Source: Thiomonas delicata (lineage in GTDB: Bacteria > Pseudomonadota > Gammaproteobacteria > Burkholderiales > Burkholderiaceae_C). From it: a stretch of DNA of 64,000 bases. This document shows, in pieces, positions 22,771 to 54,319 of this stretch (the first letter of the stretch is position 1; the number at the start of each line of letters is the position of its first letter). Where the stretch lies: the NCBI RefSeq assembly GCF_900088825.1, contig NZ_LT592171.1, positions 274,009-338,008 on the forward strand, in the 5' to 3' direction. The translations under genes were made by a program, and so were the position numbers. The notes beneath the pieces were generated by a model that saw nothing but the letters and a program-made list of their open reading frames with translations, did not search any database and was not told the origin of the DNA.

Positions 22771-23361
22771 TCAGGTTGTTCCAGAAAGGTGTTTCAGGAG
22801 TTCTGTATACGAGGTTTGCCCCAATTTTTGAAAGACGATGGAGCCGTCGGGCGCAATGATCACCGTGAATGGGAGCCCGCCTTGGTTGTCGCCGAGTTTC
22901 GCGCTGAGTTCCGTGCCGCCCATGCCACCCAATAGCACAGGATAGCTGACAGCGCGGGCTTTCAGGAAATTGCGCACGGATGTTGGATTATCGATGGCGA
23001 TGCCGATCATTTGCAGATTTTTGCTGCCATGATCCTTGTAAAAACGTGACAGCTCGGGCATTTCAGCAATGCACGGCGGGCACCAGCTCGCCCAGAAGTT
23101 GACGATCAAGATCTTGCCTTTGTACTGGGCCAGCTTGACGCTGTGGCCGCCGAGATCGTCCAGCGACGTGGCGAACAGCGTCTGCACCGCGTTGGGTGCC
23201 GGCGTCATCGTTGCCTCTGGAGGTCTCGAGGGCTGTGTTGCCGCCGTGATCAAACGCTCGGCATCGGCGCGGGTCGACGCGCGGGAGCCGAACCAGAAAC
23301 CCCCGGCGGCCCCGATGGCGCCGATGAGCAGAACCAGAATCCAAGATGTTGTGCTTTTCAA
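22771..23361 (-). CDS. membrane-anchored TlpA-like thioredoxin
   Basis: The best start is TTG at 23361: TTGGAG lies seven bases upstream, and the codon overlaps the previous stop as TTGA (23358-23361). This gives 196 residues, MKSTTSWILVLLIGAIGAAG, with an N-terminal membrane anchor (about 7-25). The thioredoxin fold carries the redox pair C94-P-P-C97 in FWASWCPPCIAEMP. It probably reduces or oxidises disulfides on the periplasmic side. A cytochrome c maturation role is possible but not shown. It precedes aroQ by 18 bases. Confidence 0.88.
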   Translation of the reverse strand: MKSTTSWILVLLIGAIGAAGGFWFGSRASTRADAERLITAATQPSRPPEATMTPAPNAVQTLFATSLDDLGGHSVKLAQYKGKILIVNFWASWCPPCIAEMPELSRFYKDHGSKNLQMIGIAIDNPTSVRNFLKARAVSYPVLLGGMGGTELSAKLGDNQGGLPFTVIIAPDGSIVFQKLGQTSYTELLKHLSGTT

Positions 23362-24008
23362 AGTGAAACTCCAATAGGGGGTGATGCCGCCGGGCCGGCT
23401 TCGACCAAGGCACGCACCGCCTGCATATTGCCGCGCTCGGCCGGTTTTCCGGAGCTGCGAGGCGCGCGCAGCAGCACGCCGCGTTCGTCCTTGAGCGGAT
23501 AGAGGCTGAGCGAGGCGATCACGGTCGGATGTCGGGTGGTGGCCCCGCTTGGCATCGGCCACTCGAACTCGAGGCGCTCCACGGGGGCCTTGCCCGCGTA
23601 ATGCGGGGCTTCGCTGGCACGGTAGGCAAGGTTCCGGTTGATGCAGTGAATTTCCACCGCCTTGGTATCGTCGGCAAATAGCAGGACATGCAAGGCAGAG
23701 TGCGCCGTCGCCGTTCCGTTCCACACCGCGCCCGCAAGATGCGGCCTGAATTCGGCGAATTCTTCCATCAGCCCCAGTGCGGCGCGGCGCAAATTCCAAA
23801 GCAGCGAGGGGTGTTCGTCACCGTGGAACAAGGACAAATAGAGCCGGACCTGGGTGAGGACATCCGTGTTGTCGGGCTGCACCTCGGGGTGCGCGCCTGG
23901 GCCAAGCATCTGGTGCGTTGCCTTGCGCTTGGCCGTTGCGTAATCCAGGCCGTCCTCGACAATGAGCCGGGCCGCCATGGCGGCGAGTTCTTCCCGTAAA
24001 GCGTTCAT
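23358..24008 (-). CDS. conserved hypothetical protein
   Basis: I do not recognise the function. From ATG at 24008 the product has 216 residues; an ATG at 24035 would add nine. There is no signal peptide or membrane segment. The N-terminal part (ARLIVEDGLDYATAKRKA) is helical and resembles small proteins encoded next to TlpA-like genes in other Burkholderiales. The middle part (SLLWNLRRAALGLMEEFAEFRPHLAG) is mixed alpha/beta, with HSALHVLLFADD. Its stop overlaps the TTG start of the TlpA-like gene, so the two are probably translated together. Confidence 0.7.
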   Translation of the reverse strand: MNALREELAAMAARLIVEDGLDYATAKRKATHQMLGPGAHPEVQPDNTDVLTQVRLYLSLFHGDEHPSLLWNLRRAALGLMEEFAEFRPHLAGAVWNGTATAHSALHVLLFADDTKAVEIHCINRNLAYRASEAPHYAGKAPVERLEFEWPMPSGATTRHPTVIASLSLYPLKDERGVLLRAPRSSGKPAERGNMQAVRALVEAGPAASPPIGVSL

Positions 24009-24170
24009 CAAGGGGAGTGTATCCGTCTGATGCATGCCGACCGTACGGCAGTGTCGGCTCGATCCGGCTTGGCTGCGGGACCCGATTCCGAAGGCAGCGT
24101 GGCAGCCGGTAACGGCCTCACGCCGGCCGCGGAACAGTCCCGCAGGCGAGACGGGTTGGACCCCGATGCC

Positions 24171-24596
24171 TCATGGTTTCGCGGCGCCGGGATTCGCGAG
24201 ATGCACGGGATCTCCGTTGCGGTCGAAGGGCAGCATGCCTTCGAATGAGCCGTTCCTGATGCTGTCGACCATGTGTTGCAGCGATGCCTCGGTTTCTTCG
24301 CTGGTGGGGGGCAGGCCATCATGCCAGGATACCGATGACGCGAATACGAGCGACCAAGGCGGCCCGAAGCGAGCCGCTTCCTCGATCAGGGTCTGGAAAT
24401 CCGCGAGCTCGTCGGGACCCTTGTCGACGACCATCACGGGCTCGAGCTCGCCACCGTTGCCGGCATTGAATTCGGCGCGCTGTTCGCCGCTGGCGTTCTC
24501 GGGAAGCGTGGCGCCGACGAAGACGAACAAAAGATGCTGCGGCTTGGTCTGGCGACGACTCAAGACAAGAAGATCGTCAAAAGTCTGAATGTCCAT
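24171..24596 (-). CDS. conserved hypothetical protein, cytosolic
   Basis: From ATG at 24596 (MDIQTFDDLLVLSRRQ) the product has 141 residues; AAGGA lies five bases upstream, which rules against the ATG four codons earlier. It is soluble and acidic, with the blocks PQHLLFVFVGATLPENA, PVMVVDKGPDELADF and WSLVFASSVS. Similar small proteins occur in Burkholderiales and are sometimes labelled ribonucleotide reductase subunit, which I consider unfounded. It lies 44 bases after narL on the same strand, so it may be co-transcribed with narXL. Confidence 0.65.
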   Translation of the reverse strand: MDIQTFDDLLVLSRRQTKPQHLLFVFVGATLPENASGEQRAEFNAGNGGELEPVMVVDKGPDELADFQTLIEEAARFGPPWSLVFASSVSWHDGLPPTSEETEASLQHMVDSIRNGSFEGMLPFDRNGDPVHLANPGAAKP

Positions 24597-24640
24597 GTTG
24601 TCCTTCAATCATTGATGTGAATTGGGCAATCGAGCCCCGC

Positions 24641-25285
24641 TCAGGTGTTTCCGACCGCCCACACGGCGGCTTGCGTGCGTGAATTGACGTGGATTTTCTT
24701 GAGGATGCGCTTGACGTGGATCTTGACGGTTCCCTCGGCGATATGAAGGTCCCGCGCAATTTGCTTGTTGCTCTTGCCCTCTTTGAGGTGGGCGAGAACA
24801 TTGGCTTCCTGTGGCGTCAAATTCGCGGCCTCTTTTGTTTTCGGCAGCGGATCTTCCCTCAGCGACACGACCAATAAATTGACCAAGTTGTCGCTCAAAG
24901 CCATTGCGCCGGTCTCGGATGTTTTGAGGATGCCGGCAAGGAGGGCTTCTGGCGCCATGTCCTTGAGCAGGTAGCCGTCAGCGCCAGCGCGCAGCGATGC
25001 GGTCAGATTCTCGGCGTCATCGGACACCGTGATCATGATCGTCGTGATGCCCGGGTGGTGGGTCTTGATCTCCTTCAGCGTATCGAGGCCGCTCATGCCT
25101 TTCATGTGCAGGTCGAGCAAGACGACGGAGGGTTCCAACCGGCGCACGAGATCCAACCCGTCTTTGCCGTTGTCGGCTTCGCCAACGAGGACGAGCTGGT
25201 CGCTCGCCATGGCAATCAGGTCTTTCAGTCCCTGGCGGAACAATGGGTGATCATCGATGATCACGACTTCATGCATGGAGTTCAT
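24641..25285 (-). CDS. narL: nitrate/nitrite response regulator NarL
   Basis: A 214-residue response regulator. The receiver has the acidic pair DD (11-12), phospho-acceptor D58 in VVLLDLHMKGMSG and K in GYLLKDMAPE. The LuxR-type helix-turn-helix is LTPQEANVLAHLKEGKSNKQI followed by EGTVKIHVKRILKKI, the NarL/NarP type. The start at 25285 lies within the narX end (17-base overlap); a second ATG at 25276 is possible. Once phosphorylated by NarX it should bind heptamer sites such as the inverted repeat at 27532-27547. Confidence 0.93.
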   Translation of the reverse strand: MNSMHEVVIIDDHPLFRQGLKDLIAMASDQLVLVGEADNGKDGLDLVRRLEPSVVLLDLHMKGMSGLDTLKEIKTHHPGITTIMITVSDDAENLTASLRAGADGYLLKDMAPEALLAGILKTSETGAMALSDNLVNLLVVSLREDPLPKTKEAANLTPQEANVLAHLKEGKSNKQIARDLHIAEGTVKIHVKRILKKIHVNSRTQAAVWAVGNT

Positions 25286-27170
25286 GTTTCGTGCCTGGCG
25301 CGATGCGGATCGACGTGCTGAGGGCGCGCGGCGTCAATTGCACGGCAACCCGTGTGCCGCCCTCCGGTTTGTTCGTGATGGATAGCTGGGCTCCGATATG
25401 GTTGGCGCGTTCATGCATGATGAGCAGGCCATGATGGCCGATCCGGCCATGCTCTTCGCCTATGCCGATGCCATCGTCATCAATCGCAAGATGAACGCCG
25501 CCGCCCTCGCTCTCATAAAAACTCACCTCGATATGGCTCGGGTTTGCGTGTTGAATCGCATTCGCGAGCGCCTCTCGCGTGATCTGCAGCAGGTTGATTT
25601 CCTCGTTCGGACTCAGACGCGAAGTGGTCGGGGTCACTTGGGTGTGCACGGGGATCGAACCGCGCAGGGAAAACTCGGCGGCAGACTTCTCGAGCGCGAT
25701 CGTCAGATTGTCTTCGACCTTCATGCGGAAGGTCGAAAGCAGTTCGCGAAGGTGGTGATAGGCATTGGTCAGACCGTTGTCGAGCGAGGACATGATGAGC
25801 TCGGTTTGCGCGGGTTCCTTGGCCTGCACCGCCGTTTTGAGCCGGCATACCTGGATTCTCATGTACGACAGCGATTGCGCAAGGGAGTCGTGAAGTTCAC
25901 GGGCCAAAATCGCACGCTCCTCGTAAACGGACCATCGTTTCGACTGTTCGGCGCGCATGGCTTCGCCGATGGCGATGCCCATGTGGGTCGCGAGGGCCTC
26001 CAGCAATTGAATCTGCCAGGGATCGAGGTCCTGCCCGGAAGGGACGACCCATTGCAGAACGCCGTAGCTGGAGTTGACATCGTGGAGAGGGAGCGTCAGT
26101 GCGCGCAAGTGTTCAAATTCGCGCCAGCGTATGGCGCTTGACGCGTGGCAGTCGGAGCAATTCGAAACCTGGCATAGCTGGCGGTCGCCGGAACTGAACT
26201 GCGGCGATGCTGGCGTACCGCCGTGCGTGCTGTCGCTGGCAAGGCAGACGAGTCCATGGCCGACGCCGATGGCCTTCTCGAAGTCGTTCAGCAGAGACAA
26301 GTGCGTGCTTGAATTGATCGCGCTCGGGTAAAGACGCCCGATCGACCTGTAAAGCAATTCGAGCGACTTGTTGCTGCGCGCCAGGGATTCCGTCTTCTCG
26401 GCGACTTTGTGTTCGAGGTTCTGATAGAGCTTGTCGAGATCTTCCGCCATCAAATTGAACGACAGGCCGAGCCCGTCGAGGTCGTTCGCCGCGTACTGGG
26501 CCACGCGCACCGAGAGATCCTGCCTACGCATCTTTTGGGTGGCTTCCTGAAGCTCTTTCAGTGGGACGAGAACGTCTGCGCGCGTGACGTAGATCGTGAT
26601 CGCAATGACGACAAAAATCGCAGTGATGGCAAGACCTTGTATGAGCCGCAGCAAGGCAAGTTTCGCCTCAACGTTCTCCTGCAGCAAGGTGACCAGTTCA
26701 TCGATCGTCGTCACGAGATTTTGCGCTTGCGCCAAAAGCGCAACCCGGGCTTCCGGGTTGAACCGAGAGGTGTCGGCCTCGGCAACGAGCAAGGGGCGTA
26801 CCCGCTGCTGCCAGGCGTCGAGCATGTCTCGGTAAACACGCGCCCGCCGGTCCAGTTCGTCAGACGGAATGAATTGGGTCAGGGTCGGGGATGCCAAAGT
26901 GGCTTCGAAATCGTTGAGCGAGCCCTCCAGCGCCTTGATCTGATCGGGCCGGCTGCGCGTCGGTATCGCATTGAGCGTTGCGACCGCGCGGTAGATCTTC
27001 ATCCGCAAGGAACCCGCCATGTTGATAGCCGAAGCTTCGCCGCGCGCGCCGTCCGCAATGACCAGGGAACTGATCAAACTCGTCAGGGACAGCAGCGCGA
27101 TCAGGACGAGCATGCGCGTCAGCCGCGCCAACAACGACTGGCCCCAGAACCGCCGATACAAGCGAATCAT
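25269..27170 (-). CDS. narX: nitrate/nitrite sensor histidine kinase NarX
   Basis: From ATG at 27170 the protein has 633 residues. Membrane helices lie at about 17-39 and 177-197, enclosing a periplasmic sensor. Its start has the nitrate-binding P-box INMAGSLRMKIYR (about 49-61). A HAMP region, a coiled coil and a central GAF-like module follow. The HPK7-type H-box is ARELHDSLAQSLSYMRIQ with H427, and the ATPase has the N-box EALANAIQHA. The central module holds C333, C338 and C341 followed by His, a C-x4-C-x2-C-H cluster. It senses nitrate or nitrite and phosphorylates NarL. Confidence 0.93.
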   Translation of the reverse strand: MIRLYRRFWGQSLLARLTRMLVLIALLSLTSLISSLVIADGARGEASAINMAGSLRMKIYRAVATLNAIPTRSRPDQIKALEGSLNDFEATLASPTLTQFIPSDELDRRARVYRDMLDAWQQRVRPLLVAEADTSRFNPEARVALLAQAQNLVTTIDELVTLLQENVEAKLALLRLIQGLAITAIFVVIAITIYVTRADVLVPLKELQEATQKMRRQDLSVRVAQYAANDLDGLGLSFNLMAEDLDKLYQNLEHKVAEKTESLARSNKSLELLYRSIGRLYPSAINSSTHLSLLNDFEKAIGVGHGLVCLASDSTHGGTPASPQFSSGDRQLCQVSNCSDCHASSAIRWREFEHLRALTLPLHDVNSSYGVLQWVVPSGQDLDPWQIQLLEALATHMGIAIGEAMRAEQSKRWSVYEERAILARELHDSLAQSLSYMRIQVCRLKTAVQAKEPAQTELIMSSLDNGLTNAYHHLRELLSTFRMKVEDNLTIALEKSAAEFSLRGSIPVHTQVTPTTSRLSPNEEINLLQITREALANAIQHANPSHIEVSFYESEGGGVHLAIDDDGIGIGEEHGRIGHHGLLIMHERANHIGAQLSITNKPEGGTRVAVQLTPRALSTSIRIAPGTKHELHA

Positions 27171-27260
27171 GATTCTCACAGAGATGAATGTTGCGCCGAT
27201 GGCGGGCCGATCGAAGGGCTAGGCAGGCGACGCAATTAGTCGTGTGCACCAGGAAACCGA

Positions 27261-27273
27261 GCTCATTATGAGC
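27261..27273. promoter_or_regulatory. palindrome upstream of narX
   Basis: GCTCATTATGAGC is a perfect inverted repeat with a one-base centre, about 90 bases before the narX start, and is partly extended by flanking CG pairs. No T run follows, so it is not a terminator. It could be an operator for the narXL transcript; the binding protein is unknown. Confidence 0.4.
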
Positions 27274-27531
27274 CCGCCGAGCAACTTCGCAGACATGCCC
27301 CATCGCGTATCTGTACTCCCACGGCCATAGGCATGGCTCCGTCGGGACGCCTCCCGGGTGGCGATCATGGGTTGCATCCACCGCCCGCGGGCGGATTTGA
27401 TGTCTTGCGTTTCAGCGCCTGAGGAGACAGACCATTGCGAAGGTGGTACTCCGAAAAACCCCGCCGGGGCCGAATGCGCGGACATGATTTTGAAAATACC
27501 GTCGGATCAAAGGCTTACATCACTACCACCC

Positions 27532-27547
27532 TACCTCGTTAGAGGTA
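27532..27547. promoter_or_regulatory. NarL binding site, 7-2-7 inverted heptamers
   Basis: The 16 bases TACCTCGTTAGAGGTA are a perfect inverted repeat. They read as heptamer TACCTCG, two bases TT, and heptamer AGAGGTA, whose complement TACCTCT fits the NarL consensus TACYYMT exactly. This tail-to-tail 7-2-7 geometry is the one known for NarL and NarP in E. coli. It lies 93 bases before narC, the first gene of the nitrate reductase operon, and narL itself is encoded nearby. Confidence 0.75.
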
Positions 27548-27640
27548 TATCGACGCATTTCAGGAGCTTTGTCGGCAGTAGGCAACGCGGTGGCTAAGGC
27601 CTATTGTCCTGGTCATCCAAGTCCGCAGCAGGGGAAACTC

Positions 27641-28543
27641 ATGAGAGGGTCGTTGCATCAACAGGTGGTTTGCGCCAAGGCTGGGCCTCACCGGCATTTA
27701 TGGATAGGCGGAGCCTTTCTATTGTTGCTGGCGGTGTATTTGGTAAATATGAAGCAAGCTTACGCCGACGGCAAGGCCCTTTTCGAACAGCGCTGCGCAC
27801 AATGTCACACGATCGGCGGCGGAAAACTGGTCGGGCCGGATCTGAAGGATATCGGGACCCAACGCAAGGCAGACTGGCTGCTGCAGTTCATTCAATCCCC
27901 TCAACGGGTGATTCAGAGTGGTGATCCAACGGCAAAAACGCTTGTTGCCCAATACGGCATGGTGATGCCCGATCAAGCGCTGTCCAGTGCAGAAATCCAT
28001 GGCATCCTGACTTACATTTCCCAAGCCTCCCGGGGAGCAAACACAGTCTCGGCTCCGCCAGTGGTCGTACCAGCTGCGGTCGCACAGCCAAGCCCAGCGC
28101 AGGTCATCGCAGGCGCTCGGCTTTTTACCGGACAAACACGGTTTACCCATGGCGGTGCAGCGTGCATTTCCTGTCATGACGTCAACAACTCCGCTGTCGG
28201 CATTGCTGGCGGAAAGCTTGCCGTCGGCTTAACTGGGGTCTATGCAACCATCGGTGCCGACGGCATCAAGGCCATGGTCACCACACCTCCGTTTGCGCCT
28301 ATGGCCATGGCCTATGAAGGCCATCCAGTGACCGATGCTGAAACAGCGCAATTAATCGCATTTCTGCAGGCCGCTAGTTTGTCCAAAGCAGCGCAAGCGG
28401 GAACGCGCATCTCGAGCGACATGCTGGTTGCAGGAGGGGTGGGGATGCTGGTGATCCTGGCAGCCATGAATTTGATCTGGATCAGGCGGAAAAAATTCAG
28501 CACCAAGCATTTGATTTACGCGCGCCAGATCAAGACGCATTGA
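27641..28543 (+). CDS. narC: membrane-tethered dihaem cytochrome c, NarC-like
   Basis: From ATG 27641, six to eight bases after AGGGGA, the product has 300 residues. An N-terminal hydrophobic stretch (about 20-36) exports it. Two class I cytochrome domains follow, with haem motifs C52-A-Q-C55-H56 and C175-I-S-C178-H179 and candidate axial methionines near 107-109 and 221-223. A C-terminal helix (about 262-281) with the basic tail RRKK anchors it. The domains face the periplasm. Its place at the head of narGHJI matches NarC of Thermus, where it passes electrons to the nitrate reductase; that role here is inference. Confidence 0.8.
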
Positions 28544-28580
28544 GTCAGACACCCCATCATCGACAAGACACGAGGACATC

Positions 28581-31500
28581 ATGAGCTGGATCAAAGACAT
28601 CATTTCGCCAAAAACAAGATCTTGGGAAGAGTTTTATCGTAATCGTTGGCAGCACGATAAAGTCGTCCGCAGTACGCATGGCGTCAATTGCACAGGTGGT
28701 TGCTCCTGGAATGTGCATGTCAAAGATGGGATCGTCGTTTATGAAACCCAGGCGCTAGATTATCCGCTGCTCGAAAAATCGCTTCCGCCCTACGAGCCGC
28801 GTGGCTGCCAACGGGGGATTTCCTATTCCTGGTATCTATACAGCCCGATCCGCGTCAAATACCCGTTGATGCGCGGAGCCTTGCTCGATCTGTATCGCGA
28901 GGAAAAAGAAAAAACTGGCGATCCCGTGCTGGCTTGGCGGAATCTGCAAGACGATCCAGCCAAGCGCAAGCGTTATCAACAGGCGCGTGGCAAGGGCGGT
29001 TTCCGCCGCGTGCATTGGGACGAGGCGATGGAGTTGATCAGCGCCGCGTCGTTGCATACGGTCAAAAAATATGGTCCCGACCGACTTGTCGGGTTCTCCC
29101 CAATTCCCGCGATGTCGATGCTGAGCTTTGCCGCCGGCGCGCGCTTCCTGCAATTGATGGGAGGAGTATTACTGAGTTTTTACGACTGGTATTGCGATCT
29201 GCCCCCGGCTTTCCCCGAAGTTTGGGGTGAGCAGACTGACGTGGCTGAAAGCGCAGACTGGTACAACTCCAAGTTCACGGCGGTTATGGGCGCCAACCTG
29301 GGAATGACACGCACGCCCGATGTGCACTTTTTCTCGGAGTCGCGCCATAACGGGACGAAGACGGTCGTATTTTCGCCAGACTTCAGTATGGTGGCGAAAT
29401 ACGCAGACCAATGGGTTCCTGTGCATGCGGGAAGTGATGGGGCATTTTGGATGGCCGTAACCCATGTCATCCTCAAAGAATGGCATTATGAAAAACAAAC
29501 GCCGTATTTCATAAATTACGCAAAGAAAACAACAGACAGCCCTTATCTGGTCGAATTACATGCCCAATCCGGAAGTTATGTCGCGGGTAAATTGCTGCGT
29601 GCAAACAGGATTGAAAAATACAAAGATCAAGAGAACGGCGAGTGGAAATTCCTCAATATTGACGAGAGCACAGGGGAATTGGTCATGCCGAAAGGTAGCG
29701 TCGGCCACCGCTGGGACAAGGTGAAGGGAAACTGGAACACCAAACTTGAAGACGGGCTTGGGGACCAGAGTTATGACCCGTTGCTTACCCTCCTCGGCAA
29801 GAGCGATGCCGTACTGCCTGTTGAGTTCACAGAGTATGGATTGAATCGCAAAGCCCTCCGCGGAGTGCCTGTCAAGTATGTGACGACCAAGACCGGAGAA
29901 CAGGTTGCAGTGGCCACGATCTATGACCTCATCATGGCGCATTATGGCGTTGATCGTGGGCTGGGCGGCGATTATCCTGAGAATTACAGTAATAAAGACG
30001 CCGCTTACACGCCGGCGTGGCAAGAGATTTTTACTGGGATAGGCTCAGAAACGGTGCTGCAATTCGCACGTGAATGGGCGCGCACCGCGGAAATGACGGG
30101 CGGTAAATGCACGATTATCGTGGGGGCTGGCATAAACCATTGGTTCCACGGCAATTTGATCTACCGCGCCGGAATGATGGCGCTCATGCTGACAGGTTGT
30201 GTCGGGGTCAATGGCGGTGGGATGAATCATTACGTCGGGCAGGAAAAACTCGCGCCTACCGATTCATGGGGTAGCATTATGTCAGCGCGCGACTGGCAGA
30301 GCACGACGAGGCTCCAGCAAGCACCCATATGGCATTATATGAATTCAGATCAGTGGCGGTATGATGGAAATCAAAATGAATATAACGCGGCGCCCAGCAA
30401 CAGCACGACCAAGCTGCATACGGCGGATTTTATTGTAAAGGCCGTGCGGAATGGCTGGTTGCCATTCTTCCCGCAATTCAATGTCAACAATTTCGAGTTG
30501 GTCGAGCAGGCGCGTCAGGCTGGAGCCGAGACGGATGATGAAATCAAGAATTACATCCTGGAGAAGTTAAAGTCGGGAGAAATTCGATATTCCGTGACTG
30601 ATCCGGACGCCGAGGTCAACTGGCCACGCGTATGGTTTATCTGGCGCGGCAATGCTATCGGCACGAGTGCCAAAGGGCATGAGTATTTTTTAGATCATTA
30701 TCTTGGTACGCACCATAATCATATCGCCGACGAGGCTGCCAAAGGCAAAGTCAAGGATGTCAAATGGCGCGACGCCGCCGCCCGCGGAAAAATGGATTTG
30801 ATCGTCGATTTGAATTTCAGGATGGATACTTCGGCGCTTTATTCAGACATCGTGTTACCCACGGCATCATGGTATGAAAAGGATGATTTGAACTCGACGG
30901 ACATGCATTCGTTCATCCATCCGTTGAGTGCTGCAATACCCCCGGTCTGGGAATCAAAAACGGATTGGAATATTTTTCGGGATCTTGCTGGAATGGTCAG
31001 CGACATGGCGCGAAAACATATGCCGCTGCCGATCACGGATGTCGTGACAGCAGCACTTTCCCATGATAGCGCTGATGAAATTTCCCAACCCCGGATGCTC
31101 GACTGGGCAAAAGGTGAATGTGAAGCGGTTCTCGGAAAATCCATGCATAAACTTGCGCTGGAAGAGCGCGACTATACGCAAATTTATAACAAGTTCATCG
31201 CGCTCGGCCCCAACGTGCGCGAAAAGGGTCTGGGGGCACATGGCAATCAATACGACTGCGCTGATTTCTATGACAGGATGCTCGAGAATGCCGATCATGT
31301 GCAGACGATTCAAGGGCAACGCTACCCCTCACTCAAGGAGGATACCGAAGCCATCGAGGCTGTTCTGCTTCTCTCATCTGCCACGAATGGCGCTCTTGCC
31401 GAGCGCGCGTATAAAAATGCGGAAATCAAAACAGGTGTGAAGCTGGCTCATCTTTCAGAGGCCTCAAGAGGGGTCCTGATTAATAATCGAGACCTGAAGA

Positions 31501-32198
31501 CACAGCCGCGCCGTCTAATTAATACACCGATTTGGTCGGGGTTGATGGATGGCGGGAGAGCTTATGCTGGCTTTACTTACAACATTGAAAACAACATCCC
31601 TTGGCGCACCTTGACGGGCCGTCAACATTTCTATTTGGATCATGACGGATACATTGCCTTTGGTGAAAATTTCCCGACATTCAAGCCGTCGCCGACACCG
31701 GAAGCCTACGGTGATCTACGGCAGTCGGTGAACGATGGCAAAGCGAAGATGCTGAATGTCTTAACCCCGCATGGGAAATGGCATATTCATTCGACCTATG
31801 GCGATACTCTGCGGATGCTCACGCTTTCACGTGGCATGGAGCCTTGCTGGCTGAGTGAGTCGGACGCTGAAAGCCTTAGAATTCAAGATAATGATTGGGT
31901 CGAGGTTTATAACGATCACGGGGTGTACTGCACTCGCGCGGCCGTGAGCGCCAGAATTCCGTCGGGAGTTTGTATCGTTTATCACGCTGTCGAACGCACC
32001 TATAGTGTGCCGAAATCTGAGATCCGTGGCGGAAAGCGAGCAGGCATGAACAACAGTATTACTCGCGTGCATCTGAAACCCAACCTCTGTGTGGGGGGGT
32101 ATGGCCAATTTACCTACCATCTGAATTATTGGGGCCCGGTTGGTGTAAACAGGGATACTCATGTATTGGTCAGGAAAATGGAAACGGTCAACTTCTAA
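28581..32198 (+). CDS. narG: respiratory nitrate reductase, alpha subunit
   Basis: A 1205-residue molybdenum bis-MGD protein reducing nitrate to nitrite on the cytoplasmic face. The FS0 cluster ligands H33, C37, C41 and C76 ([11 protein letters not shown] and RGCQRG) and the Mo ligand D206 ([10 protein letters not shown]) all sit exactly 16 positions before the E. coli residues H49, C53, C57, C92 and D222. It is about 40 residues shorter than E. coli NarG, partly through a shorter N-terminus. There is no Tat signal, as in membrane-bound Nar enzymes. GAGGA precedes the ATG. Base composition is more AT-rich than in flanking genes. Confidence 0.96.
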
Positions 32199-32210
32199 AG
32201 GCATAGAATC

Positions 32211-33704
32211 ATGGATATCAGATCTCAAATTTCAATGGTTTTCCACCTCGATAAATGTATCGGCTGCCATACCTGTTCGGTGGCCTGCAAAAATATCTGG
32301 ACCGATCGCAAAGGCGCAGAATATATGTGGTGGAACAATGTCGAAACAAAGCCCGGCACTGGCTATCCGACCCGTTGGGAGGACCAGGAGGTATATAAGG
32401 GGGGGTGGACAAAAACTGGGGATGGGATCCAGCCCAAAAGTAATAAAAACAAAGTTATTACTTTGAAAAATATTACATACAACCCCGACATGCCGGTCAT
32501 GGATGATTATTATGAGCCCTGGACCTACAAATATTCTGATCTATTCGAAGCGCCGGAAGGGGATGATCAGCCAACGGCGAGAACGATATCGCTGGTGACA
32601 GGCCATCCCATCGATGTCAAAGCCGGGCCAAATTGGGATGATGATTTAGGCGGAACCAAGGATTATGCGCGGAAAGATGTCAATTTAGAAAAACTGAGCC
32701 CTGAAGAGCAGGAGGCCATGTTTCAACTCGAGCGTCTGACGTTCATGTATTTGCCGCGTATTTGTAATCATTGCCTCAATCCGACCTGTGTTGCATCATG
32801 CCCATCAGGGGCCCTATACAAGAGGGGGGAGGATGGAATTGTTCTGATCAATCAAGAGCGTTGCCGTGGTTGGCGCATGTGTGTCACGGCGTGTCCTTAC
32901 AAGAAAACATATTACAACTGGTCGACCGGGAAATCAGAAAAATGCGTGCTTTGCTATCCTCGACTCGAGGCAGGCATGGCCCCAGCTTGCTTCCATACCT
33001 GCGTCGGCAGAATTCGCTATTTGGGTGTCATGCTTTATGACGCGGAGAAAATTGAGGCGACCGCGTCGTGCGAAGAGCGGGATCTTGTTGACAAACACTT
33101 TGATATTTATCTTGACCCTTTCGATCCGGAGATCATAAAAAAGGCCAAGGAGTGCGGCATCGCCGATTCGACGATCGAGGCCGCACAAAAATCACCCGTC
33201 TATAAATTTGTGAAGCAGTGGAAAATTGCATTGCCACTTCATCCTGAATTTCGAACACTTCCTAATTTATTTTATGTTCCACCGCTCCTGCCGACCATGG
33301 GCAAGGTCACTGAGGGTCTTTACGACACGGCCACGAAATCATTCTGGGGTGGAATCGAAAACTCGCGTCTGCCTCTCGAATATCTGGCATCACTCTTTTC
33401 TGCGGGAAACGTCAAACAGATTGAGGTCGTGCTGAAGAAGATGATGGCCGTCAAGATTCATCGCCGGCGTGTGACGGTTGGTGATCTGCCCGCACAAGAG
33501 GTTGAGGATGCATTGCAAGAGGCCGGCGTCAGCGAGGAGATGGCTGATGCAATATTTAGGTTGACGACGCTTGCGTTGAATGAGGAGCGCTTCGTGATCC
33601 CAGCTGCTCATCGAGAAGAAGCGAGTGAATTGCTTGAAGCCACCGATGACCGTAAAGGCAATGCAGGTTTCGGCTTTCGAGAAAAACCAGCGCGGGGTCT
33701 TTGA
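32211..33704 (+). CDS. narH: respiratory nitrate reductase, beta subunit
   Basis: A 497-residue iron-sulfur protein carrying four clusters between NarI and NarG. Cysteines are C16, C19, C22, C26; C185, C188, C193, C197; C218, W221, C224, C228; and C245, C248, C260, C264. W221 in CRGWRMC marks the [3Fe-4S] site, as in other NarH. It starts 12 bases after narG and its stop shares one base with the narJ start (TGATG). The insertion with repeated Asp and Pro between the first two cysteine groups is normal for NarH. Confidence 0.96.
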   Translation: MDIRSQISMVFHLDKCIGCHTCSVACKNIWTDRKGAEYMWWNNVETKPGTGYPTRWEDQEVYKGGWTKTGDGIQPKSNKNKVITLKNITYNPDMPVMDDYYEPWTYKYSDLFEAPEGDDQPTARTISLVTGHPIDVKAGPNWDDDLGGTKDYARKDVNLEKLSPEEQEAMFQLERLTFMYLPRICNHCLNPTCVASCPSGALYKRGEDGIVLINQERCRGWRMCVTACPYKKTYYNWSTGKSEKCVLCYPRLEAGMAPACFHTCVGRIRYLGVMLYDAEKIEATASCEERDLVDKHFDIYLDPFDPEIIKKAKECGIADSTIEAAQKSPVYKFVKQWKIALPLHPEFRTLPNLFYVPPLLPTMGKVTEGLYDTATKSFWGGIENSRLPLEYLASLFSAGNVKQIEVVLKKMMAVKIHRRRVTVGDLPAQEVEDALQEAGVSEEMADAIFRLTTLALNEERFVIPAAHREEASELLEATDDRKGNAGFGFREKPARGL

Positions 33705-34414
33705 TGACTAAGAATCTCGAAATCTATCAGCAGTTCGCCGGATTGTTCCGCTATCCACGAGCGGATTTTGTCGAGGAGCTAGTCGAGTTGAGAAATCAAC
33801 TTGAAATGCTGCATCTGGGTGATTTGATCGAGTTTGAAAAATATGCGAACTACATGCTGGCTTTGAATCTCCAGGAAAGAGAAGAGATTTTTCTTAAAAC
33901 TTTTGAAATCCAGGCAATCTGCCATCTTGAGATCGGATATGTTCTGTTTGGGGAAGATTATAAGCGCGGGCTCTTTCTGGCTGGCATGAAAGAGGAGCAC
34001 CGTAAAAGAGACCACGATTGTGGTTTGGAGTTGCCCGACCATCTTTCGAATGTCTTGGATTTGCTTTCTGGCATGGATGATGAAGAGCTGGTGAAGGACA
34101 TTGCTGAACTTGCGCTGATTCCTGGCGTACGGGCGATGCTCTCTGCGTTCGACGAAAAGCAAATCCGAGGCCGCCTCGAACTGCTGAAGAAGAAGCAGGA
34201 AGCTATTGTGCAAGAAGAGTTGAATTACGGAAATCCCTACCGTTACGCACTTGATTCACTATTGAAGGCGCTGGAAGCCGATTTCCCTGGTGTTCCCGAG
34301 GGGCGGCAGGATCAAGCAGCCGGAAATTTTATTCCGATTCATCGTGCAGAAGGGGGTGAAATTTCAGTGTGCGCATTGGCCCGCCCACCCGCTGAGTTGG
34401 TGCAAGGAGATTAA
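33704..34414 (+). CDS. narJ: nitrate reductase assembly chaperone NarJ
   Basis: From ATG 33704 the product has 236 residues, all helical and without export signal. The NarJ-type features are FAGLFRYPRADFVEELVEL near the start and the EIGYVLFGEDYKRGLFLAGM block. It holds apo-NarG for cofactor insertion and is not part of the final enzyme. It overlaps narH by one base and is followed one base later by narI, consistent with one tightly packed operon. Confidence 0.93.
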   Translation: MTKNLEIYQQFAGLFRYPRADFVEELVELRNQLEMLHLGDLIEFEKYANYMLALNLQEREEIFLKTFEIQAICHLEIGYVLFGEDYKRGLFLAGMKEEHRKRDHDCGLELPDHLSNVLDLLSGMDDEELVKDIAELALIPGVRAMLSAFDEKQIRGRLELLKKKQEAIVQEELNYGNPYRYALDSLLKALEADFPGVPEGRQDQAAGNFIPIHRAEGGEISVCALARPPAELVQGD

Positions 34415-34415
34415 C

Positions 34416-35141
34416 ATGAATTTTCGACAGGCACTTTTCACGATTCTTCCCTATGTTGCATTGACGACATTATTGGTGGGATCAATTTATCGCTATCGCA
34501 TGCTCGGTTTTAAGGTGACGTCACTCTCATCACAATTCCTTGAAGGTAAAAATTTGTTTTGGGGTACGCAACCGTTTCATTGGGGCATCCTCGTCGTTTT
34601 TCTTGGTCATCTCGCAGCCTTCGCCATCCCCAGTGGTGTGTTGGCATGGAATGGGCAACCTTGGCGTCTTCTGGCCTTGGAATGGACGATGTTCGCGTTC
34701 GCACTAAGCGCGCTGTTCGGGCTCGGAGCCCTGATGGTTCGACGCTTGCGCGATGCGCGTCTGCGCGTAGTGACAAGCCGCATGGATGTTCTTCTTTACG
34801 CATTGCTGACGTTCCAGCTGTTAACCGGCATCCTGATTGCTTATTTCAACAATTGGGGAAGTTCGTGGTTCGCCTCGTCTGTGACGCCCTATCTGCGCTC
34901 GATTTTTCTTTTGAACCCTAAAGTCGATGTGATCGTGGCAATGCCGGGCTTGGTGCAGCTGCATATCATCTCAGCGTTCCTCATTTTTGGTTTGATTCCA
35001 TTTACTCGACTTATACACTTCACCGTATTCCCCTTGAATTACACCTGGAGGCCCTACCAGCAAGTGATCTGGAATTGGGCGCCCAAGGCGAGACGGACTG
35101 CTACTGCGTTGAGGATAGGCGTGAAACCCAAGAATAATTAA
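34416..35141 (+). CDS. narI: respiratory nitrate reductase, gamma subunit (cytochrome b)
   Basis: From ATG 34416, five bases after AAGGAGA, the protein has 241 residues with five membrane helices. The haem b ligands are H55 and H65 (PFHWGILVVFLGH) and H183 and H201 (LVQLHIISAF and RLIHFTVFP). The spacings of 10 and 18 equal those of E. coli H56/H66 and H187/H205. NarI takes electrons from quinol, or here possibly from the dihaem cytochrome, and passes them to NarH. Confidence 0.95.
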   Translation: MNFRQALFTILPYVALTTLLVGSIYRYRMLGFKVTSLSSQFLEGKNLFWGTQPFHWGILVVFLGHLAAFAIPSGVLAWNGQPWRLLALEWTMFAFALSALFGLGALMVRRLRDARLRVVTSRMDVLLYALLTFQLLTGILIAYFNNWGSSWFASSVTPYLRSIFLLNPKVDVIVAMPGLVQLHIISAFLIFGLIPFTRLIHFTVFPLNYTWRPYQQVIWNWAPKARRTATALRIGVKPKNN

Positions 35142-35212
35142 AGACGTTTTCGGGGATGGTCATTGAGCGCAATGACCATTCGAAACGACAACGTCGAAAA
35201 GAGGGTGTTGAC

Positions 35213-36595
35213 ATGTCCTACGTGCTTCAGTCCTGGGATCCCGAGAACCCTGCCCAGTGGCAGCGGGAGGGTCGAAGGGTGGCGAGCCGGAACCTGTGGG
35301 GCTCAATCGCCGCATTGTTCCTAGCTTTCTGCGTCTGGATGGTTTGGAGTATGGTAGTTATCAATCTACCTAAGGTCGGTTTTAAATTTAGCACGGATCA
35401 GCTTTTTTGGTTGGCCGCGCTGCCGGGCTTATCGGGAGCAACGCTACGTATTTTCTATGCGTTCATGGTGCCAATTTTTGGCGGGCGGCGATGGACGGTT
35501 TTTTCGACGGCGACGCTGCTCATTCCCGCCGTGGGAATTGGATATGCGGTGCAAGATCCGACCACCCCTTACAGCACCATGTTGGTGCTGTCACTGCTAT
35601 GTGGTTTCGGTGGAGGTAATTTTGCGTCGAGCATGGCGAATATCAGCTTCTTTTTTCCTAAGGCGCAGAAAGGTTTCGCTTTGGGCATGAATGCGGGGCT
35701 GGGCAATCTTGGCGTGTCAGCAATGCAATTGGTGGTGCCTTTTGTGATTACAGTTCCTCTTTTCGGCGGATTTGGAGGCGGCCCTCAGGCTTGGTGGAGA
35801 GGAGGCGTGGAAACGCAGTTGTGGTTGCAGAATGCCGGTTTTATATGGGCGCCACTCATCGTTGCCTCGTCATTGTTCGCATGGTTCAAGATGAATGATG
35901 TGGGTGTCGCGAAAGCGTCTTTGATGGATCAGTTCGTGATTTTTCGCCAGCGGCATACCTGGGTGATGAGCTGGCTTTATCTCGGGACTTTCGGATCGTT
36001 CATCGGATTTTCCGCCGGCTTTCCGCTCCTGATCCGCACACAGTTTCCAAATGTCAATGTCGTGGCGTTCGCTTTTCTTGGCCCTTTGGTGGGGGCACTT
36101 GCCCGCGTCGGCGGTGGATGGGTGTCGGATAAATTGTGTGGGGCTTGTGTAACGCTTGGGGCTTTTCTTGTCATGGCCTGCGCGACGGTTGGGGTCGTTC
36201 TTTTCCTGCCGCATCCAGATTATGCAGGGAATTTTTGGATGTTCTTCCTATTATTTATGATTTTGTTCGTCGCGACTGGCGTGGGTAATGCATCAACATT
36301 CAGGATGGTGCCTCTCATCTTCCTGGCACTAAAAGAGCAGACCGTGGAAAACGGCGACAGCGCGCAGCTTCAGTTGGCGCGGGCCGACGCCAACAAAGAG
36401 AGTGCGGCGGTACTCGGATTCATCTCCGCAATAGCGGCCTACGGCGCGTTTTTCATTCCCATGAGTTATGGCACGTCGATCAAGCTGACGGGTGCCCCGG
36501 ATGCGGCACTGTTTTCATTCGTGCTGTTTTATCTATCCTGCATAGTCGTGACTTGGCTGTTTTACTCGCGCAAAGGGGCCAAGATTCGCTGCTGA
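35213..36595 (+). CDS. narK: nitrate/nitrite transporter NarK
   Basis: A 460-residue MFS carrier of the nitrate/nitrite porter family, from ATG 35213 with GAGGG about seven bases upstream. Twelve hydrophobic segments can be counted. The two family signatures are recognisable: GGNFASSMANISFFFPKAQKG in the fifth-helix region and GVGNASTFRMVPLIF later. It brings nitrate in and/or nitrite out for cytoplasmic NarG. It lies 71 bases after narI and ends the AT-richer block. A single, unfused NarK is present, not a NarK1-NarK2 fusion. Confidence 0.93.
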   Translation: MSYVLQSWDPENPAQWQREGRRVASRNLWGSIAALFLAFCVWMVWSMVVINLPKVGFKFSTDQLFWLAALPGLSGATLRIFYAFMVPIFGGRRWTVFSTATLLIPAVGIGYAVQDPTTPYSTMLVLSLLCGFGGGNFASSMANISFFFPKAQKGFALGMNAGLGNLGVSAMQLVVPFVITVPLFGGFGGGPQAWWRGGVETQLWLQNAGFIWAPLIVASSLFAWFKMNDVGVAKASLMDQFVIFRQRHTWVMSWLYLGTFGSFIGFSAGFPLLIRTQFPNVNVVAFAFLGPLVGALARVGGGWVSDKLCGACVTLGAFLVMACATVGVVLFLPHPDYAGNFWMFFLLFMILFVATGVGNASTFRMVPLIFLALKEQTVENGDSAQLQLARADANKESAAVLGFISAIAAYGAFFIPMSYGTSIKLTGAPDAALFSFVLFYLSCIVVTWLFYSRKGAKIRC

Positions 36596-36690
36596 GGCTT
36601 GACATCGCCCGGTGGATGGGCGCGCGATGAATTCCGGCCGCCCGGGCGTCGCGGCGCAGCCCCAAGGATGGAAGACGCGCTTGGCGCGGC

Positions 36691-36720
36691 TTCAGATTTC
36701 CATTGCCGGTTTTCTACAAT
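36691..36720 (+). promoter_or_regulatory. promoter for mpl, leaderless arrangement
   Basis: TTCAGA (36691-36696) and TACAAT (36715-36720) are separated by 18 bases. TACAAT ends six bases before the mpl ATG at 36727, so transcription should start at or next to the A of the start codon. No Shine-Dalgarno is present in that six-base gap. Confidence 0.5.
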
Positions 36721-36726
36721 GGGCCG

Positions 36727-41544: not shown

Positions 41545-41619
41545 TGGTCCCGCCGACAGGAATCGAACCTGTATCTCGCGCTTAGGAGGCACGCGTTCTA
41601 TCCATTGAACTACGGCGAG
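41545..41619 (-). tRNA. tRNA-Arg (anticodon CCT)
   Basis: On the minus strand 75 bases fold as a full cloverleaf. The acceptor is CTCGCCG with CGGCGGG (one G-U), the D stem GTTC/GAAC, the anticodon stem CGTGC/GCGCG around loop CTCCTAA, and the T arm ACAGG-TTCGATT-CCTGT. Discriminator A and an encoded CCA follow. Anticodon CCT reads AGG. No integrase or duplicated 3' end is seen beside it. Confidence 0.97.
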
Positions 41620-47918: not shown

Positions 47919-50900
47919 TCAGTGCAGCTGTCCCGATGTCATATAGCTCTTGATCAGACCCAACAGCTCATCTTCCGAATAGGGTTTGCCGAGATAGTGG
48001 TTCACACCCAGCTCCCGCGCGTAGTTGCGGTGTTTGTCGGCAATGCGCGAGGTGATCATGATCACCGGGAGGTGGCGTGTGCGATCGTCGGCGCGGATGT
48101 TGCGTGTCAGGTCGAAACCATCCATGCGGGGCATCTCGATGTCGGTCAACACGACGTCAGGCAGGGCGCTCTGAAGCTGTTCCAGCGCGTCCAGTCCGTC
48201 CTTGGCCAGCAGCACCGCGTAGCCGTTGCGGGTCAGGAAACGCTGGGTCACGCGGCGGACCGTGATGGAATCATCCACCACCAGCACGGTGTTGCCGGCA
48301 GTCAGCGAGTGCGGAGGTTCCTGCATGGCGGTTTGAGGCGCATGCGGCAGCGCGGCCGACTGAGCCGCCTGGGACTGCTCCGCCGCGCGCACCATGCGCT
48401 GCGTCGCCTCCTCACCGTATACCGCGGCCAGGGCCACGGGGTTGTAGATCAGGACCAGGTTGCCGGTGGGCAGGACCGAGATGCCGGCCAGGCCAGGCAC
48501 GCGTGAGAGCTGAGGGCCAAGGTTCTTGACCACCACTTCCTGGTTGCCGAGCACTTCGTCGACCTGCAGCGCGAGCCGTTGCGCTGCGCTGCGAATGAGC
48601 ACCACTGGGATCGTGCGGCCGGGGGTTTCGCTGCTGGCGCCCGATTCGGCCGTGAGGGCTCCGAGCCAGTAGAAGGGCAGCGATGAACCCGCGTGCTCGA
48701 GAACCCCTTGTTGGGCTGCCGCGGCGACTTGTGCCGGCTTGAGCCGCAGGACCAGATCGACCAGGCTGGCGGGGGCGGCGTAGACCTTGCTGCCTGCGCG
48801 CAGCAGGACGACCTGCGTGACCGCCGTGGTCAGGGGCAGGACCAGGGTGAAGGTCGTCCCTTGGCCGGGCACCGAGGCGAGCTCGACGCGGCCGCCCAGG
48901 GCGCGGGTGTCGGTGCGCACCACGTCGAGGCCGACACCGCGCCCGGCCATCTCGGTGGTTTGTTCCTTGCTGCTGAAGCCGGGCCGGAAAATGAGTTCGC
49001 GCAGCAAGGCCTCGTCGGCCTGGTCGGAGGGCCCGAGCAGGCCCGTGCTGCGCGCCTTGCGCTCGATGGCGGCGTAGTCCAGGCCGGCGCCGTCATCGGC
49101 AATCGAGACCACCACTTCACTGCCTTCCTGGCGCAGCTTGAGGGTGATGGTCCCCGTGGCCGGCTTGCCGGCGGCTTCGCGCGCGGCGGCGCTTTCCAGA
49201 CCGTGCGCGACGGCATTGCGCAGGATGTGCTCGAAGGTACCGGCCATGCGGTCGAGCACGCCACGGTCGATCTCGATGGTGCCGCCCTCGATGTCCAGGC
49301 GCACCGGGATGCCGGCGTCTTTGCCGGCCTGCCGCACCGTACGGTAGAGGCGCTCCGAGATGCTGTCGAATTCGACCATGCGGGTGCGCAGCAGGTCACG
49401 TTGCAATTCGCGCGTGAGCCGGCCCTGGCGGGCCAGATTGTCGTCGGTGGATTGCAGCGTGCGGCTGAGCGTGGTTTGCACCAGAGCCAGGTCGTTCACC
49501 GACTCGGCCATCATGCGGGTGAGTTCCTGGAACCGCGTGAAGCGGTCGAACTCGAGCGGGTCGAAATCGCGACCGTCTTCGCGCGCAGCCTGGGCTCGCG
49601 CCGCCATCTGGGCATCGGCCTGCAGCTCGATGTCGCGGACCTGGGCGCGTAAACGATTGAGGTTGTCCCCCAGATCGCTCGTGCTGGAGCGAATCAGCCC
49701 GAACTCGTTTTCGAGACGGGAGCGGGCGATGCTGACCTCGCCCACCTGATTGACCAGGCGGTCGAGCAGCGCGGCGCGCACACGGACAGGCTGGGACGCG
49801 ACACGACTTGCCGCACCCGTTGCAGGCGCCAGCGTCAGGGGTTGCGGCGCCGGAGCGCCCGTGCTGGCCTCGGGCTGGGGCTCGACAGGTAGCGGTGTGT
49901 GATCCTGTGCCTCGGTGGGATGGTCGGCGACGGCCGCTGCGCGAGCCGCCTCCTCCTGCAGGCCTTGTTCGATATGGAGCTCACCGAGTTCGGTTTCGCC
50001 GCGGCTGCTGGCTTCACGCAGGCGTTCGAACCGGGTGTTCAGGGCGTCGTGCCGGGCGATGAGGTCGATGAGATCTTGCTCGCGCGGGGTTTCGGCATCC
50101 GCAGCCAGCAGCGATTCGATGTCCGACTCCAGACTGTGGGCCTGGTCGCCCAGCGCCATCGCGCCGGCCATGCGTGCGCTGCCCTTGATCGTGTGCAGCA
50201 GGCGCATGGCCTGCTTGGGCGCCGCGGTGTCGCGCGGGTGGGTTTCCCATTGGCGCAGCGCGGCCGAGAGGCCGGGCAGCAGTTCCGCGGCTTCCTCTTC
50301 AAAAATCGGGAACAGTTCGGGGTCGATACTGTCGCGCAGCGTCGGATCCGCGGCCGCGGCATCCTGGCTCGGGGATGGCGCCGGCACCGCGGTCGAGGCG
50401 GAAGCTGCATGTGGTGCGGCAATCCAGCCCGAAGACGGCGCGGCGTCTTGCATCTCGGGCGTTTGCGCGGGAGCTGGAGCCGCGGCTTGCGGCTCCGTTG
50501 CTTCGTCCGGTTTCAAGTCTGTGGCCAGAAGCGCCTGATCGACATCAGCCGACTTCACGCCGGCGCGCACACTGTGGTGCTGCAGACGGTAGACGAGGGA
50601 TTGCAGGGCGTCGGTCAGATCCTGTTGGGCTGGCCGCAGGAAGCCGGCGGCGAACTGGTGCAGCAAACGGCGGATGTCTTCAGCCGCCTCGACGAGCAGG
50701 CCAATATCTTGCGGCTCGAGGTTGGCGGGGTTCTCGCGCTGCAGGTGCAGGGCTTCTTCGAGCAGTTCGGCCAGCTGGCCCACCGTTTGCAGTCCCACGG
50801 TGCGCGAGCTGCCGCGCAGTTGGTGGGCGAGCGACGGGACTTCCTCGGTGATGGGGTTGCCTGGCTGCAGGGACCAGGCGGCGATGTCGGCGCCCAAGCG

Positions 50901-54248: not shown

Positions 54249-54319
54249 GCCGTGTGGCGCGCGGGGCGGCGGAAGTGTGCGGGCGGGCGGGGCGGGAGGA
54301 CAGGCGAGAGCGTTGCGGG

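Follow-up and report, generated by a model that had tools for sequence, protein, structure and literature searches.

Gene content of the narC locus

This report concerns a respiratory nitrate reductase operon of Thiomonas delicata (order Burkholderiales), in which a gene for a cytochrome c, narC, directly precedes narG. The operon lies within a 64,000-nucleotide stretch of DNA, referred to throughout as the window (contig NZ_LT592171.1 of assembly GCF_900088825.1, positions 274,009 to 338,008), in which it occupies positions 27641-36595. The original prediction for this DNA comprised a narC-G-H-J-I-K gene order headed by a membrane-tethered, dihaem cytochrome c, with the cofactor ligands of NarG, NarH and NarI intact. 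The gene order proved to be as described, with six uninterrupted open reading frames (ORFs) on the + strand:

27641..28543, + strand: narC, two-haem cytochrome c with a C-terminal membrane anchor, 300 residues
28581..32198, + strand: narG, nitrate reductase alpha subunit, with an N-terminus about 17 residues shorter than that of ordinary NarG
32211..33704, + strand: narH, iron-sulfur beta subunit
33704..34414, + strand: narJ, divergent assembly chaperone, its ATG overlapping the narH stop by one base
34416..35141, + strand: narI, haem-b gamma subunit with four His ligands
35156..36595, + strand: narK, nitrate/nitrite transporter, with homology from residue 20-21 or so (about 35213)

Scores against the respective NCBIfam models exceeded the cut-offs for narG (1440 bits on TIGR01580, cut-off 1084), narH (658 bits on TIGR01660, cut-off 524) and narI (116.8 bits on TIGR00351, cut-off 105.6), and fell marginally short for narK (311.2 bits on TIGR00886, cut-off 311.7). 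The score for narJ was below the cut-off (25.9 bits on TIGR00684, cut-off 59), and its name therefore leans partly on gene position. The narI start was placed at 34416, the overlapping GTG of the mechanically called ORF being a wrong start.

The narC ATG at 27641 is preceded by CAGCAGGGGAAACTC. The encoded protein begins with a signal-like hydrophobic stretch with AYA at its end, carries the haem motifs CAQCH and CISCH, and has a C-terminal helix at residues 259-285 followed by RRKK (AlphaFold2 model from a 32-row alignment; mean pLDDT 86, pTM 0.63), so that the dihaem, membrane-tethered cytochrome immediately 5' of narG was confirmed also. Similarly, the four haem-b His residues of NarI are present, and the aligned cluster-binding stretches of NarG and NarH are conserved with respect to Escherichia coli, the NarG alignment extending to about residue 1000. 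A chance arrangement or a gene fragment was ruled out, since every gene is open and homologous. Judged from its sequence, then, the locus encodes a real, intact-looking and transplanted nitrate reductase of the NarC type, the transplantation being considered below.

Relationships of the NarG protein

Relatives of the window NarG were collected by a scan of GTDB representatives that returned at least 593 pattern matches, at least 590 of which were confirmed; the best 80 were retained, which leaves the lower edge of the clade unsampled. Among those retained, the top relatives were from three metagenome-assembled genomes (MAGs) titled 'Proteobacteria bacterium' (loci L004-L006, 81-82% identity), followed at 58-73% by sequences from Bacteroidota, Ignavibacteriota, Calditrichota, Gammaproteobacteria, Myxococcota, Planctomycetota, Chloroflexota, Desulfuromonadales, Thermus and others. 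In a FastTree analysis of 142 NarG sequences, the window protein fell within a group of 85 rows, whose tblastn identities to the window were 56-82%, as opposed to 57 ordinary rows (44.5-47.8%), and no sequence in this sample was of intermediate identity. The separation of the two groups was rooted by midpoint, with a support of 0.89 for the split; support was 0.999 for a 15-row Bacteroidota set and 0.955 for its join with L010.

A 98-row IQ-TREE analysis, conducted as a quick search under LG+G4 without a mixture model, returned values of 100 in the Shimodaira-Hasegawa-like approximate likelihood ratio test (SH-aLRT) for the 85-row NarC-type group and for the union of the window with L004-L006, which is joined next by one Bacteroidota MAG at 95. 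Long-branch warnings in this analysis concerned ordinary rows and L077, and not the vicinity of the window. The window lies inside the 15-row set (SH-aLRT 100), which comprises 10 Bacteroidota, 1 Chlorobiota and 3 Pseudomonadota MAGs and the window itself. A NarG from a Caballeronia plasmid nests among the ordinary NarGs of the window's order. Approximately unbiased (AU) tests with 28 rows rejected the grouping of the window and L004-L006 with four ordinary Burkholderiales-type rows (p 1.2e-86) and with two Thermus rows (p 2e-41).

The phylogeny called for by the original prediction thus places the window NarG outside the ordinary Burkholderiales proteins, in the same clade as that of Thermus. 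NarC was found to be homologous to Thermus NarC over 201 residues (30% identity, E 1e-13), the similarity being by eye strongest in the C-terminal haem domain. Since this homology extends beyond the haem motifs and NarG lies outside the ordinary group, neither of the sequence-based objections foreseen for the prediction (a tight grouping with ordinary Burkholderiales NarG, or a likeness to Thermus NarC confined to the haem motifs) applies. The description of the operon as Thermus-like stands as regards gene order and NarC homology, but a special closeness to Thermus does not, and direct transfer from Thermus was ruled out by the AU test. An ordinary Burkholderiales narGHJI operon with a stray cytochrome gene was likewise ruled out, by the tree and by the co-occurrence of narC with narG described in the next section. 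Because the window nests in a Bacteroidota-rich set, the donor is best called Bacteroidota-like, and the operon was most likely acquired from such a bacterium.

Co-occurrence of narC with NarC-type narG

The prediction also held that typical proteobacterial nar operons have no cytochrome c gene, and proposed that related genomes be searched for the same gene order. Using tblastn with six NarC queries, a NarC homologue was located 5' of narG in 82 of 84 NarC-type loci (L004-L086 and L170); in the two loci without a match, L031 and L070, the contig starts at or close to narG. The same search (E 0.01) detected NarC in none of 57 ordinary nar loci, 52 of which have about 1.5 kb or less of sequence before narG and one of which, L111, has none. 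The gap between narC and narG is mostly below 120 bases, or the genes overlap by 4 bases; the widest gap noted was 437 bases (L011). Among six clade loci added later, which are probably nitrite oxidoreductase (NXR)-like, a gene for a two-haem NarC immediately precedes narG in L181 and L183, bringing the overall count to 84 of 90 clade loci. The arrangement occurs under 19 phylum labels, in MAGs and genomes, and the window locus is almost certainly a member of the type.

The NarC type is rare in the window's own order. A NarG match at E 0.001 or better was returned by 317 of 399 genomes of the order, that of T. delicata included, many of them weak, but a nearly full-length NarG at 57% identity or more was present in just four: T. 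delicata itself, G322 (71%), G100 (58%) and G356 (57%). Identities of 60-62% were also reached by a few short fragments from the N-termini of other NarGs in the order. Across 398 genomes of the phylum, 68 matched NarG at E 1e-200 or better, the T. delicata genome alone exceeding 49%; both searches scored no more than two candidates from any one genome. The T. delicata genome has one NarG, two further matches being below 34 bits. Contig C59 of G322 carries both kinds of gene, a NarC-type narG (71%) at 174267-177878 and an ordinary narG (47%) at 186433-190059, about 8.5 kb apart.

The system most similar to that of the window is NarCGHI of Thermus thermophilus, narCGHJIK(T), with which it has in common the gene order, a two-haem and C-terminally anchored NarC, a short NarG N-terminus, the NarG clade and a major facilitator superfamily transporter after narI. 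Thermus NarG is, however, 60% identical to the window NarG and not its sister, the N-terminal domain of Thermus NarC is by eye unlike that of the window, and no counterparts of the Thermus nrc genes were seen among the window neighbours scanned. The ordinary narK-narGHJI operon (E. coli NarA type) shares its reaction class, cofactor ligands and narXL control with the window, and differs in the NarC counts given above, in NarG identity (44.5-47.8%) and in its longer NarG N-terminus.

Insertion and regulatory context

The operon forms part of a longer inserted stretch, whose remaining features are as follows:

24036..36726: inserted stretch, from the start of the ORF at 23358-24035 (- strand) to the mpl start at 36727 (+ strand)
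24171..24608, - strand: small ORF, 145 residues, no Pfam match, at the left end of the insertion and adjoining narL
24641..25285, - strand: narL, response regulator with a LuxR-type helix-turn-helix
25269..27179, - strand: narX, nitrate sensor kinase with PilJ-type N-terminus, HAMP, HisKA_3 and HATPase domains
27532..27547, + strand: NarL-type 7-2-7 inverted repeat, TACCTCG-TT-AGAGGTA

The G+C content of the operon is 0.517, compared with 0.613-0.674 in 135 overlapping, equally long stretches beyond the insertion. For narL and narX the values are 0.574 and 0.596. In the window, 12.7 kb (orf_24171, narL, narX and the operon) separates orf_23358 from mpl. The mpl gene is present in 60 of 60 family genomes, and a homologue of orf_23358 directly adjoins it in five of 19 other family loci (L125, the sole one from the same genus, L130, L137, L138 and L139); in the flanks of the remaining 14, neither an orf_23358 homologue nor tlpA was found at E 1e-4. 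On this evidence of gene order and composition, together with the rarity of such a NarG in the order and the phylum, the operon and narXL are evidently a horizontal insertion between orf_23358 and mpl.

Transposon carriage was rejected, the sole repeat among those listed with an arm close to either edge being a 24-base inverted pair of 75% identity (23992 and 36951) that was taken as chance, as was insertion at a tRNA, the window's only tRNA lying at 41545. A plasmid source was rejected also: the best DNA match was 126 bases of narH (among the 20 listed of 43 records). Among NarG matches in plasmid records (60 listed of 258), those of Thermus alone reached 59-60% and the rest did not exceed 47.3%.

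The window NarL is 59-66% identical to the NarL proteins adjoining narC in L004-L006, and NarX is 35% identical to Pseudomonas aeruginosa NarX. NarK is 64% identical to that of an ordinary nar operon from the same order (L110), 59% to that of L029 (Gammaproteobacteria), 57% to that of L077 (Verrucomicrobia), and 22-48% to the NarK-like proteins of Bacteroidota loci. Since NarX and NarK are proteobacterial-like and NarG is Bacteroidota-nested, the unit looks composite, with a Bacteroidota-like enzyme under proteobacterial control.

The 7-2-7 repeat, called against the NarL consensus, lies 93 bases before the narC ATG with one mismatch and is the sole copy in the window (0.04 expected; one was present in 4 of 100 shuffled sequences). 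No FNR box (TTGAT-N4-ATCAA, up to 2 mismatches) precedes narC. In the window as a whole, this pattern occurs 35 times against 14 expected. Sigma-70 sites (8 against 8.0 expected) and terminators (17 against 13.6) were not in excess. Elsewhere in the window, positions 47919-56500 on the - strand encode a CheA-like protein of 2109 residues that contains several Hpt domains as well as CheW and receiver domains, beside a PilJ-type methyl-accepting chemotaxis protein; the region has the appearance of a chemosensory cluster for type IV pili.

Proposed role of NarC

The original prediction had electrons entering the reductase through a dedicated cytochrome c, as well as or instead of from quinol. This direction of flow was not borne out by the available text of a review of the Thermus system, which describes an assembly role and a probable outward exit (PMC7694296). 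According to that text, Thermus lacking NarC does not grow on nitrate and its NarG is soluble and immature; two-hybrid tests detect an interaction of NarC with NarI; and denitrifying Thermus without NarC does not grow on nitrite or NO, conditions in which complex III expression is inhibited. NarC is presented there as a probable electron exit to the periplasmic nitrite and NO reductases, with an electron-transport role 'not well defined yet' (PMC7694296).

By homology with known systems, NarGH would sit on NarI at the cytoplasmic side of the membrane, and NarI would oxidise quinol; its two haems b and then the Fe-S chain would relay the electrons to the Mo site for the reduction of nitrate to nitrite. 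NarK would carry nitrate and nitrite, and NarXL acting through the NarL box would turn the operon on. NarC is envisaged as lying against NarI, its haems both on the periplasmic side, and could serve two purposes. Firstly, it would be needed for the maturation and membrane attachment of NarGH, perhaps in place of the missing N-terminal segment of NarG. Secondly, it could act as a side exit from NarI, through which electrons from quinol would reach cytochrome c acceptors in the periplasm while bypassing bc1; in this organism NorCB, the c-type NO reductase, or the cytochrome oxidases are the most plausible such acceptors. Overall, we regard it as reasonably probable that the window encodes a horizontally acquired NarCGHI in which NarC is both assembly subunit and side exit for quinol electrons. 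NarC is likely a structural subunit, and the outward electron branch taken separately is an evenly balanced proposition.

The shortened N-terminus of NarG bears on the structural role. The distance from the nearest ATG to the first Fe-S motif is 32 residues in the window NarG and 33 in that of Thermus. It is 32 in 68 of 85 NarC-type NarGs (33-42 in 14, with no ATG in three), compared with 49 or 50 in 41 of 57 ordinary NarGs (25-42 in 14, and 48 or 54 in two); when the furthest ATG within 75 residues was taken instead, 51 of the 57 gave 49 or 50. All six of the later clade loci have a distance of 32, including four copies without an adjacent NarC. The window NarG therefore appears to be without some 17 N-terminal residues, a shortening that is common to the clade. 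In the accessible part of PMC10609526, the segment missing in Thermus is described as holding, in other NarGs, the NarJ site and a beta-hairpin against NarI, and its absence is given as one possible reason why assembly in Thermus needs NarI and NarC.

These observations, together with the assembly role ascribed to NarC in the Thermus literature available to us (PMC7694296, PMC10609526), would also suit a NarC that is purely an assembly or anchor subunit, with haems idle in net electron flow. The variability of its N-terminal haem is consistent with the same idea. In 17 of 82 clade NarCs (L004, L005, L006, L037, L040, L054, L057, L059, L061, L066, L067, L068, L071, L072, L074, L075 and L084) a single CXXCH is present, always the C-terminal one, which on a quick tree requires at least six changes and shows the N-terminal haem to be evolutionarily dispensable; the window's sister loci L004-L006 belong to this set. 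For this count L021, with six motifs, was grouped with the two-haem rows and L170 was left out. The NarC ORF of L021 (6276-7991) encodes 571 residues, in which four extra motifs precede the usual two. Structure searches with NarC returned four matches at E 0.001 or better, every one a single-haem cytochrome c, headed by Rhodothermus marinus cytochrome c, and single-haem cytochrome c structures align by sequence to the N-terminal domain of NarC. Conversely, the C-terminal CXXCH, M221 and E234 were invariant in all 35 NarCs chosen for alignment, and M221 could be a ligand of the C-terminal haem. Since invariance is concentrated here and 17 of 82 NarCs have no N-terminal haem, the C-terminal haem domain and the anchor make up the conserved core of NarC, the N-terminal haem domain apparently coming and going across the clade. 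An invariant haem motif and Met are not expected for an idle haem, and the nitrite and NO phenotype described for Thermus (PMC7694296, available text) also tells against a role in assembly only, which is considered unlikely. The same points, with the greater importance ascribed to the distal haem in Thermus (PMC7694296), speak for the outward branch.

The alternative in which NarC hands NarI electrons that come from cytochrome c in the periplasm, for the reduction of nitrate besides or in place of quinol, draws on the quinol site of NarI, where the window protein differs from that of E. coli at K86, an essential quinol-site residue. MAFFT places R at this position both in the window NarI and in 58 of 68 NarC-type NarIs, a pairwise HMMER alignment giving Glu for the window instead. 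In six ordinary NarIs, the position is occupied by K in four and by Y in two (Rhodococcus and, by elimination, Niallia), and K to R is a conservative change. As regards a loss of quinol use through a lost NarI site, the residue is changed (R or E, depending on alignment) but the haem ligands are kept, all four His being present in 68 of 68 NarC-type NarIs by MAFFT. The quinol site of the window NarI is thus taken to be modified but probably working, and quinol oxidation by NarI remains likely since the haem ligands are kept despite the changed site. Nitrate reduction from cytochrome c would moreover conserve little energy, as a matter of general knowledge. With the Thermus phenotype pointing outward as well (PMC7694296, available text), inward flow is judged improbable.

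A further reading has the enzyme running in reverse, as a nitrite oxidoreductase whose electrons leave NarI through NarC for the oxidases; such a scheme has been proposed for Nitrobacter. This reading draws on the genus coded g420, which is presumably Nitrobacter given its two narG copies per genome, and which falls in the same clade. In a family search around G648, a NarC-type NarG was found in 6 of 391 genomes, namely five g420 genomes and G958 (partial); each of the five has two copies, one of those in G962 being partial, and a further g420 genome, G948, has an ordinary NarG (47%) only. The g420 alpha subunits share the short N-terminus, and L181, alone of five g420 loci, has a two-haem cytochrome gene before narG. 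Two members of the window's order, G100 and G356 (loci L085 and L086), have a two-haem NarC and an alpha subunit that groups with those of g420 (support 100), in addition to an ordinary NarG, and may thus represent nitrite oxidoreductase in Burkholderiales. A likeness between the gene clusters has been remarked upon for Nitrobacter (PMC7694296, available text). The available text of PMC10732223 describes a tree of NarG and NxrA that unites Nitrobacter, Nitrolancea and Planctomycetota sequences in one cluster with nitrate reducers, and mentions no cytochrome directly before narG. The g420 proteins nevertheless form a well-supported subclade of their own, and the window NarG lies outside it, at 55-57% identity and on a separate supported branch. 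Given also its grouping with Bacteroidota, and narXL and a NarL box that fit nitrate respiration, a reversed function for the window enzyme seems very unlikely indeed.

Possible recipients of electrons from NarC were sought in the T. delicata genome. A c-type norB was identified (match to PDB 3o0r_B, E 9.7e-82), adjoined by a one-haem ORF that is read as norC-like, and nirB (935 bits), a bc1-type cytochrome b, and subunits I of aa3-type and cbb3-type oxidases (above cut-offs) are present. There was no match above the cut-off for nirK (cut-off 296; three of 58 bits or less) or nosZ (cut-off 625; one at 44 bits), and none for nrfA. The NirS family PF02239 matched at one place, at 34.5 bits (cut-off 25.5) once in-frame neighbours were added, but this was not counted as NirS, as a matter of judgement, because it is a beta-propeller without CXXCH. 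NorCB is consequently the one denitrification enzyme found that could accept electrons from NarC.

A number of observations weigh against the favoured account of an acquired NarCGHI with NarC as assembly subunit and side exit. The Thermus-type nitrite branch seems to be without a terminal enzyme in the genome, leaving NorCB, NirB and the oxidases. In four of the later clade loci (L178, L179, L180 and L182), no haem-motif ORF of at least 90 residues was found in the 1.5 kb before narG, a count that covers only this upstream stretch of these copies, the second copies in their genomes lying outside it. The regulators differ too, the window having narXL and a NarL box, with mpl on the right, as opposed to dnrST and drpAB in Thermus (PMC7694296, available text). 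The same source reports that the distal haem of NarC matters more in Thermus, and its equation with the C-terminal haem is our own interpretation. No structure of NarCGHI turned up. As to ancestry, the Bacteroidota origin is taken from MAG titles, which are possibly wrong, with L004-L006 labelled only 'Proteobacteria bacterium', and the trees came from quick runs in which no mixture model was used.

Significance of the NarC type

The window locus itself is of a known kind, and the breadth of that kind and the modular build of NarC are of greater interest. NarC is said in the available text of PMC7694296 to be absent from the nar operons of mesophiles, and no report on the breadth of the NarC type was found in the open-licence literature, the accessible parts of which describe NarC for Thermus only and note the likeness to Nitrobacter once; that literature also includes papers on haloarchaea, on Thermogutta and on a peroxidase in which the word narC occurs. 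We tentatively suggest, as a possibility short of an even chance, that NarCGHI is a second general design of respiratory nitrate reductase, spread over the 19 phylum labels and including the Nitrobacter-type NXR. In this design the N-terminal segment of NarG would have been lost, and a cytochrome c with a conserved C-terminal haem would both build the enzyme and join the quinol and cytochrome c pools, making it a quinol:cytochrome c oxidoreductase that bypasses bc1; the window would be one of at least three separate transplants into a single order. The four short-NarG copies without an adjacent NarC gene make this suggestion less probable. If NarC is a general exit from quinol to cytochrome c, annotation as plain narGHI would conceal a bc1 bypass in many environmental nitrate reducers, and the one-haem NarCs would provide natural variants with which to test NarC function.

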